Assembly: GCF_004364865.1 (NCBI RefSeq)
Contig: NZ_SOAU01000001.1
Location: 3,442,001 to 3,506,000 of the forward strand
Length of the DNA: 64,000 nt
Source of the DNA: Ilumatobacter fluminis
GTDB taxonomy: Bacteria > Actinomycetota > Acidimicrobiia > Acidimicrobiales > Ilumatobacteraceae
Direction: 5' to 3'
The notes beneath the pieces are model-generated. The model did not search any database. It saw only the letters and a list, made by a program, of their open reading frames with translations, and was not told the origin of the DNA. Position numbers and translations under genes: made by a program. Position 1 is the stretch's first letter. Every line of letters begins with the position of its first letter. Shown piece after piece: positions 40,104 through 41,064 of the stretch.

Positions 40104-40460
40104 TCAGGACGACAGGAGCTCGGCGACGCGTTCTTTGGGGCGGCCGATGATGGCGGCGTCGTCGGTCACGACGACGGGACGCTGCATGATCATCTTGTTG
40201 TCGAGGATCACCTGGACGATCTGATCGACCGTCCGGACGTCGTCGTCGGACAGCTCCAGCTTCTTGAACAGGCTGTCGCGCCGGACCAGGTCGGTCGGCG
40301 GGTCCTCGAGCTTGGCGATGATGTCACGCAAGGTCGCCTCGTCGGGCGGGTTCTTGCGATACACGACGATGTCGGCGTCGACCCCGAGTTCTTCTGCAAT
40401 GCGCACGGCATTGCTCGACGAGTTTCAATTTGGGTTGTGGTAGATGGTCACCTTGGCCAT
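40104..40460 (-). CDS. arsC: ArsC-family oxidoreductase with in-frame TGA at the catalytic Cys (candidate selenoprotein)
   Basis: One frame runs from ATG 40460 to the stop at 40104 with a single internal TGA at 40425-40427. Read as Sec it gives 118 residues, the ArsC length, starting MAKVTIYHNPNUNSSSNAV. In E. coli ArsC the segment is YHNPACGTSRN, so the TGA is exactly catalytic Cys12. The three Arg equivalents (LVRRD, QRPVVV, IGRPKE) and H8 are kept; the Arg four residues after the Cys is Ser. A 7-bp hairpin with loop CGTGC begins 10 bases after the TGA, as in bacterial SECIS elements. TACGGT lies 6 bases before the ATG, supporting this start. Without Sec decoding the gene would be broken; annotators would call only the part after the TGA. 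No ars operon is nearby, so arsenate may not be the substrate. Confidence 0.75.
40396..40414 (-). promoter_or_regulatory. SECIS-like hairpin
   Basis: Minus-strand RNA GCAAUGC-CGUGC-GCAUUGC: perfect 7-bp stem, 5-base loop with G as its second base. The loop begins 17 bases after the UGA, inside the 16-37 base range described for bacterial SECIS elements. Confidence 0.6.
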
Positions 40461-40466
40461 GGCGCC

Positions 40467-40472
40467 ACCGTA
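40467..40472 (-). promoter_or_regulatory. Predicted leaderless -10 (ArsC-family gene)
   Basis: TACGGT on the minus strand, 6 bases before the ATG at 40460. Confidence 0.45.
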
Positions 40473-40608
40473 CCCCGAGATCACGATGGCGGGCCGGGTC
40501 GATCCACGCCGGCGGCTCGCGATGTGACACCCCCTCCGTAGGGTGCCTCGTACCGACTTCCCCTCGACAACCGCCGGTGTCCCACCGGCCCCACCGTTCG
40601 AGGTCATC

Positions 40609-41064
40609 ATGTCCCGACCCACCGGCATCCACCGGTTCCCACGCGCCCACATCGACCCGATCGTCGATCCGGCGACCGCACTCTCCCTGTTCCGTCGGGC
40701 GCTCGCCGTCCCCCGGCGCCACGAGACGGTCATCGTCCTCCTCGACGACCGGCGATGCGGCTTCTCGATCGTGACCGTCGACGGCACCGACGAACCCGAC
40801 CACGTCCTCGGTGCCATCGAGTGCTTCACCCACCCGCCCCTGGTCGAGAACGGCCTCGACGCGCTCCTCGTGGCGACCGATCGGACCGCGGACGGCGGCA
40901 CCGAACCGGGCGACGCCGATCGATGGTTCGAGATGTGCGACCTGACCGATCAGGCGGGCGTCGAACTCGTCGAGTGGTTCGTCTTCGGCCGCACGATCAG
41001 CTGTCCGCGTGATCTGGTGGGTGCGCCGCCGCGCTGGCGCGGGCTCGACGCTCGCTCGGCGTGA
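40609..41064 (+). CDS. Unknown small protein
   Basis: 151 residues, not recognised. It looks like a compact alpha/beta protein: ETVIVLLDDRRCGFSIVTVDG, EPDHVLGAIECFTHP, LDALLVATDRT and VELVEWFVFGRTISCPRDLVG alternate strands and helices. No signal peptide or TM segment. ATG 40609 has GAGG 5-6 bases upstream; an in-frame GTG at 40543 is possible. A TAGGGT at 40539-40544 would place transcription start about 58 bases before the ATG. The last 68 bases overlap, antisense, the end of the DUF4031 gene. Confidence 0.72.
   Translation: MSRPTGIHRFPRAHIDPIVDPATALSLFRRALAVPRRHETVIVLLDDRRCGFSIVTVDGTDEPDHVLGAIECFTHPPLVENGLDALLVATDRTADGGTEPGDADRWFEMCDLTDQAGVELVEWFVFGRTISCPRDLVGAPPRWRGLDARSA

Follow-up and report, generated by a model that had tools for sequence, protein, structure and literature searches.

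Whether an in-frame TGA ends a gene or is decoded as selenocysteine (Sec) is the question raised by a locus of the actinobacterium Ilumatobacter fluminis, in which a TGA takes the place of the catalytic cysteine codon in a gene of the ArsC family. The locus lies in a stretch of 64,000 nucleotides, which is referred to as the window. Proteins of this kind have been met before, as the original prediction had indicated: a survey of the Sargasso Sea in 2005 described 14 Sec-containing arsenate reductases (COG1393) with a UXXS motif and predicted SECIS elements (PMC1088965), and the GOS survey of 2008 described 77 sequences of "ArsC 1" (PF03960) with the motif UxxS (PMC2398784). The Sec ArsC family is also listed in reviews of 2022 and 2026 (PMC13188914), the latter of which calls the functions of such selenoproteins largely uncharacterised. 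A search of the available literature on selenoproteins of Acidimicrobiia or Ilumatobacter found nothing relevant, and nothing tying the Sec-ArsC family to this clade.

The reading frame and its product

The original prediction described one frame open except for a TGA at codon 12 and gave no strand; the frame is found on the minus strand (Table 1), and a plus-strand reading of 40104-40460 was rejected. With the TGA translated as Sec, the product has 118 residues and starts with MAKVTIYHNPN-U-NSSS. The TGA of codon 12 is the sole in-frame stop before the terminal one, and within the motif HNPN-U-NSSS it is aligned with Cys12 of arsenate reductases, in agreement with the prediction that it stands at the catalytic Cys. 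When TGA is treated as a stop, gene calling would yield either an ORF of 11 codons or one of 100 aa that starts at the GTG at 40406 and is without the active site, so that ordinary annotation would miss or mis-call the gene, as had been foreseen.

Table 1. Positions of the features of the ArsC-family gene in the window
Feature	Position	Strand	Remark
ArsC-family gene, very likely a selenoprotein gene	40460..40104	minus	118 codons plus stop when read through the TGA at codon 12
Start codon ATG	40460-40458	minus	
In-frame TGA, codon 12 (putative Sec)	40427..40425	minus	aligned with the ArsC catalytic Cys
Terminal stop TGA	40106..40104	minus	TGA, TAA or TAG here in homologues
-10 element TACGGT	40467..40472	minus	begins 12 nt before the ATG
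SECIS-type hairpin (candidate)	40414..40396	minus	7-bp stem GCAATGC/GCATTGC with 5-nt loop CGUGC; 10-nt spacer from the TGA

The product matches the Pfam family ArsC (PF03960) with 52.1 bits against a cut-off of 24 and is the sole match to this family in the genome. Among proteins of solved structure, arsenate reductases come nearest (3rdw, E 2.8e-21; 1i9d, E 3.1e-15), and they are also the best fold matches of its AlphaFold model (mean pLDDT 94.5), which superposes on 3f0i with Z 17.1 and rmsd 1.8 over 115 residues and on E. coli ArsC 1i9d with Z 16.0 and rmsd 2.0, likewise over 115 residues. As judged from alignment and model, the protein would have an ArsC-type fold with the catalytic position and the Arg residues in place.

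Compared with the glutaredoxin-dependent ArsC of E. coli plasmid R773 (1i9d, 1jzw), it shares the fold, the motif HNPx-C/U, H8, S15 and the three functional Arg whose retention had been noted at the outset (R60, R94 and R107 in R773 numbering); H8, S15, R94 and R107 are found in 63/63 Sec forms and R60 in 61/63. It differs from R773 ArsC in having Sec for Cys12, a variable Ser for Arg16 and a shorter C-terminus, and its gene is outside any ars operon and belongs to actinobacterial hosts. The Ser in place of the Arg after the catalytic residue had also been pointed out, and position 16 proves to vary freely among the Sec forms. Cys is absent from the window protein and from 62 of the 63 Sec homologues.

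As to the start of the gene, the motif TANNNT is found 12-14 nt upstream of the start in 48 of the 49 homologues with an aligned ATG or GTG, compared with a background of 0.0019 per position. This spacing would place the start of transcription at or beside the start codon and thus give a leaderless mRNA, so the conserved -10 box supports a leaderless ATG in the window gene, as was proposed from its -10 element. Two genes of a diverged clade have an AGGAGG-type site instead.

Decoding machinery and the downstream hairpin

The presence of selA, selB, selD and tRNA-Sec had been put forward as a check, and the genome (4.78 Mb in a single contig) contains all of them: a tRNA-Sec with anticodon tca, selA (405.6 bits), selD (324.5 bits), and selB, which adjoins selA, scores over its cut-off (271.9 bits) and encodes the SelB winged-helix domain. 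The TGA form of the gene occurs in 57 of 150 genomes of the family, and selA or tRNA-Sec is present in 55 of the 57 versus 63 of the 93 others, a co-occurrence with a Fisher p of 1e-5, uncorrected for relatedness. Of the two exceptions, one carries selB, and the second is an assembly of 1.3 Mb that is 74% complete. The formate dehydrogenase alpha subunit FdhA (L108, G000:C1:1377583-1379454), with an internal TGA in DSCNRT-U-HAPSV and then a hairpin with a GGUCU loop, is a second selenoprotein of the genome; the NRT-U-HAPSV position, in the catalytic site, is the usual Sec site of formate dehydrogenase.

The predicted 7-bp hairpin, beginning 10 bases after the TGA with its loop after 17, is found as GCAATGC-CGTGC-GCATTGC. 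Its codons were counted in the 58 close Sec sequences, which are related and non-independent: codon 21 reads ATT in 58/58, whereas in the rest of the gene 15 of 240 Ile codons do so; codon 17 reads AAT in all 52 cases of Asn, against 9 of 51 elsewhere, and AGT in the remaining 6, which are Ser and preserve the pair as G-U; codons 18 and 19 are GCC and GTG throughout; outside the hairpin codons vary freely. The Cys homologues have ATC at codon 21 (4/4) and mostly AAC at codon 17, and the hairpin is lost in them. Over the 63 Sec forms, the bulk folding energy of codons 15-26 is not significant against codon-randomised sequences, with a mean z of -0.5 and 8% of the forms below 0.05. Since high G+C makes stable folds easy, what speaks for the main-clade hairpin is the choice of codons, by which it is held in place, and not its folding energy. 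Covariation of its pairs was not obtained in the main clade because the hairpin is almost invariant there; its outermost pair is missing in 12 of 27 variants. An Rfam search gave no match to a SECIS family.

In the diverged clade the stem of the main clade is absent, and another 7-bp stem with an invariant GGTC loop starts 16 nt after the TGA. In the six sequences available, 97.6% of its cells are paired, versus at most 69% in slid controls, and compensatory changes on both sides occur at 2 of its 7 pairs. The genes with this shifted hairpin are L030, L031, L032, L033, L097 and L122. Taken together, the spacing, the constrained codons and the covarying hairpin of the diverged clade point to a genuine SECIS-type element. 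It is possible, although we hold the combination to be rather unlikely, that the Sec hairpin was replaced within the family (10 nt and loop CGUG(C/A) in the main clade; 16 nt and loop GGUC, like that of FdhA, in the diverged one), that SelB in the hosts accepts both, and that the enzyme reduces oxyanions in a selenium-dependent manner with a non-glutathione partner thiol.

Conservation of the TGA and the Cys forms

Codon 12 was read in 17 loci from one-genome-per-species contigs and in 68 genomes of the same family, the homologue records being labelled Ilumatobacter, Ilumatobacteraceae or Acidimicrobiales. After removal of duplicates, TGA stands at this codon in 63 distinct coding sequences (58 close and 5 more distant), and a search of the phylum gave two further TGA forms (L121 and L122). 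The alignment of homologues suggested as a check thus shows the TGA kept in 65 distinct homologues, the most remote at about 52% identity, and TGC or TGT in 5 close ones. An in-frame UGA so aligned with Cys and so conserved among orthologues marks the gene as a probable selenoprotein gene.

The outcome of ordinary gene calling would suit a pseudogene or a truncated gene, with the TGA a plain stop, and relatives with signs of decay had been named as what would speak for it. However, the TGA is at the same codon in all these homologues, and the full-length set has no other premature stops. The dN/dS after the TGA (0.19-0.27 over the codons past the hairpin, in eight comparisons) indicates purifying selection, and the constrained hairpin and the Sec machinery likewise speak against decay. 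A pseudogene is excluded by this conservation, and the chance that we leave to it is next to nil. Another proposition is that the TGA is read otherwise than as Sec, by misreading as Cys or Trp, or that translation restarts downstream of it. Against this, the window gene and many homologues end in an ordinary TGA, and since TGA, TAA and TAG all occur as terminal stops, TGA keeps its normal meaning as a stop; moreover, the tRNA-Sec with its tca anticodon is present, and TGC is found in a genome that lost the machinery. Nothing was found that speaks for such a decoding, and we regard it as very improbable. The window gene is very likely a functional selenoprotein gene.

The Cys forms bear on the evolution of the family. 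The protein tree needs four Sec/Cys changes, and the sequence of genome G010 falls within a set of Sec relatives (95/80 with its Sec sister). In this genome, which is 99% complete, neither selA nor tRNA-Sec nor a selB above the cut-off is found, and the ArsC-family gene has the TGC and not the hairpin; the nested placement is as would be expected of a Sec-to-Cys reversion. The genomes of the other Cys forms (G011, G015, G026 and G044) still have the Sec machinery, so that Cys can replace Sec without the machinery being lost. The Cys forms placed among Sec forms in the tree are L095 (G010), L022 and L049 (G011) and L088 (G015), and of their genomes only G010 lost the machinery.

Catalysis, substrate and relation to known systems

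It is highly probable, in our judgement, that this is an ArsC-family selenoprotein gene whose UGA-12 is decoded as Sec via SelB and the downstream hairpin and whose product is a single-selenol reductase. The gene itself, its conserved UGA, the constrained hairpin, the Sec machinery and the predicted fold are shown by the analysis, whereas the insertion of Sec, the catalysis, the substrate and the partner thiol are what we infer. In this scheme SelB with Sec-tRNA would read UGA-12 as selenocysteine under the direction of the hairpin, and translation would run on to codon 118. The product would be a Cys-free thioredoxin-fold reductase of ArsC type with a single catalytic selenol, whose selenolate at position 12, amid the conserved His8, Ser15 and Arg residues, would attack an oxyanion or an oxidised substrate, with arsenate as the best guess. 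An external thiol or redoxin would then resolve the adduct; a single catalytic Sec would need such a partner for its recycling.

Regarding the substrate, an arsenate detoxification enzyme that passes arsenite to an ACR3 pump, with mycothiol or a redoxin as reductant, has in our view about an even chance. In its favour, the closest family model is the arsenate reductase TIGR00014 (E 3e-28), H8 and the three Arg are kept, the gene is the genome's only member of PF03960, and the genome contains ACR3 (443 bits) and an MshC-like gene, which hints that mycothiol may be the thiol. On the other side, the score falls just below the equivalog cut-off of TIGR00014 (98.5 against 106.05 bits, in an NCBIfam search with Cys put for Sec), position 16 is free to vary, the match of the MshC-like gene is itself below its cut-off (419.6 against 485.1 bits), and ACR3 lies some 2.7 Mb from the ArsC-family gene, whose conserved neighbours include no arsenic genes. 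The earlier statement that no ars genes are near is right for the immediate flanks, but the genome has this arsenite-efflux gene elsewhere. A selenol oxidoreductase that reduces some oxidised substrate other than arsenate, to which we give a little less than an even chance, would agree with a stand-alone gene without ars linkage and with a position 16 other than Arg, but not with the retention of the Arg residues used by E. coli ArsC, nor with the lack of a second Cys for dithiol chemistry in nearly all Sec forms. The evidence weakly suggests arsenate as the substrate, and since the score is under the equivalog cut-off and ACR3 is distant, we file the protein as an ArsC-family selenoprotein and not as a proven arsenate reductase.

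Some observations on the surroundings may be added. Divergent from the arsC-like gene is a 173-codon ORF (40543-41064, plus strand), followed by DUF4031 and HD-domain genes; it matches no Pfam family, even at E 10, and it stands beside the arsC-like gene in about half of the homologous loci, with 32-71% identity. About 6 kb separate the ACR3 gene (L127, G000:C1:755000-772000) from selB-selA. The MshC-like gene also seemed to have a TGA that might be Sec, but this was rejected, since it is only the stop of the upstream gene.

By its PF03960 domain and its UNSS motif, the window gene appears to belong to the UxxS family of the Sargasso Sea and GOS surveys, whose reads were compared by description; the family, the motif and a predicted SECIS element right after the UGA are common to both. 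The survey sequences are metagenome reads, whereas the window gene stands in a single-contig genome with the full Sec machinery and, unlike them, comes from a family of actinobacteria for which many genomes exist and in which Cys forms and two alternative hairpins occur. A Sec ArsC-like protein of UxxC type (NF041106; PMC13188914) also has Sec at the ArsC catalytic position, but its motif is of dithiol type and that of the window gene is UxxS; NF041106 is not among the NCBIfam matches of the window protein.

The selenoprotein is very likely genuine, with an unusually full body of comparative evidence behind it, but of a kind known since 2005 from ocean metagenomes. What is gained is that the Sec-ArsC family, known mainly from metagenome reads, is now placed in a single-contig actinobacterial genome together with its decoding machinery. 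A close relative without the machinery, which has Cys and no hairpin, provides a natural experiment, and the family offers natural Sec/Cys pairs for testing arsenate reduction by an ArsC selenoenzyme.
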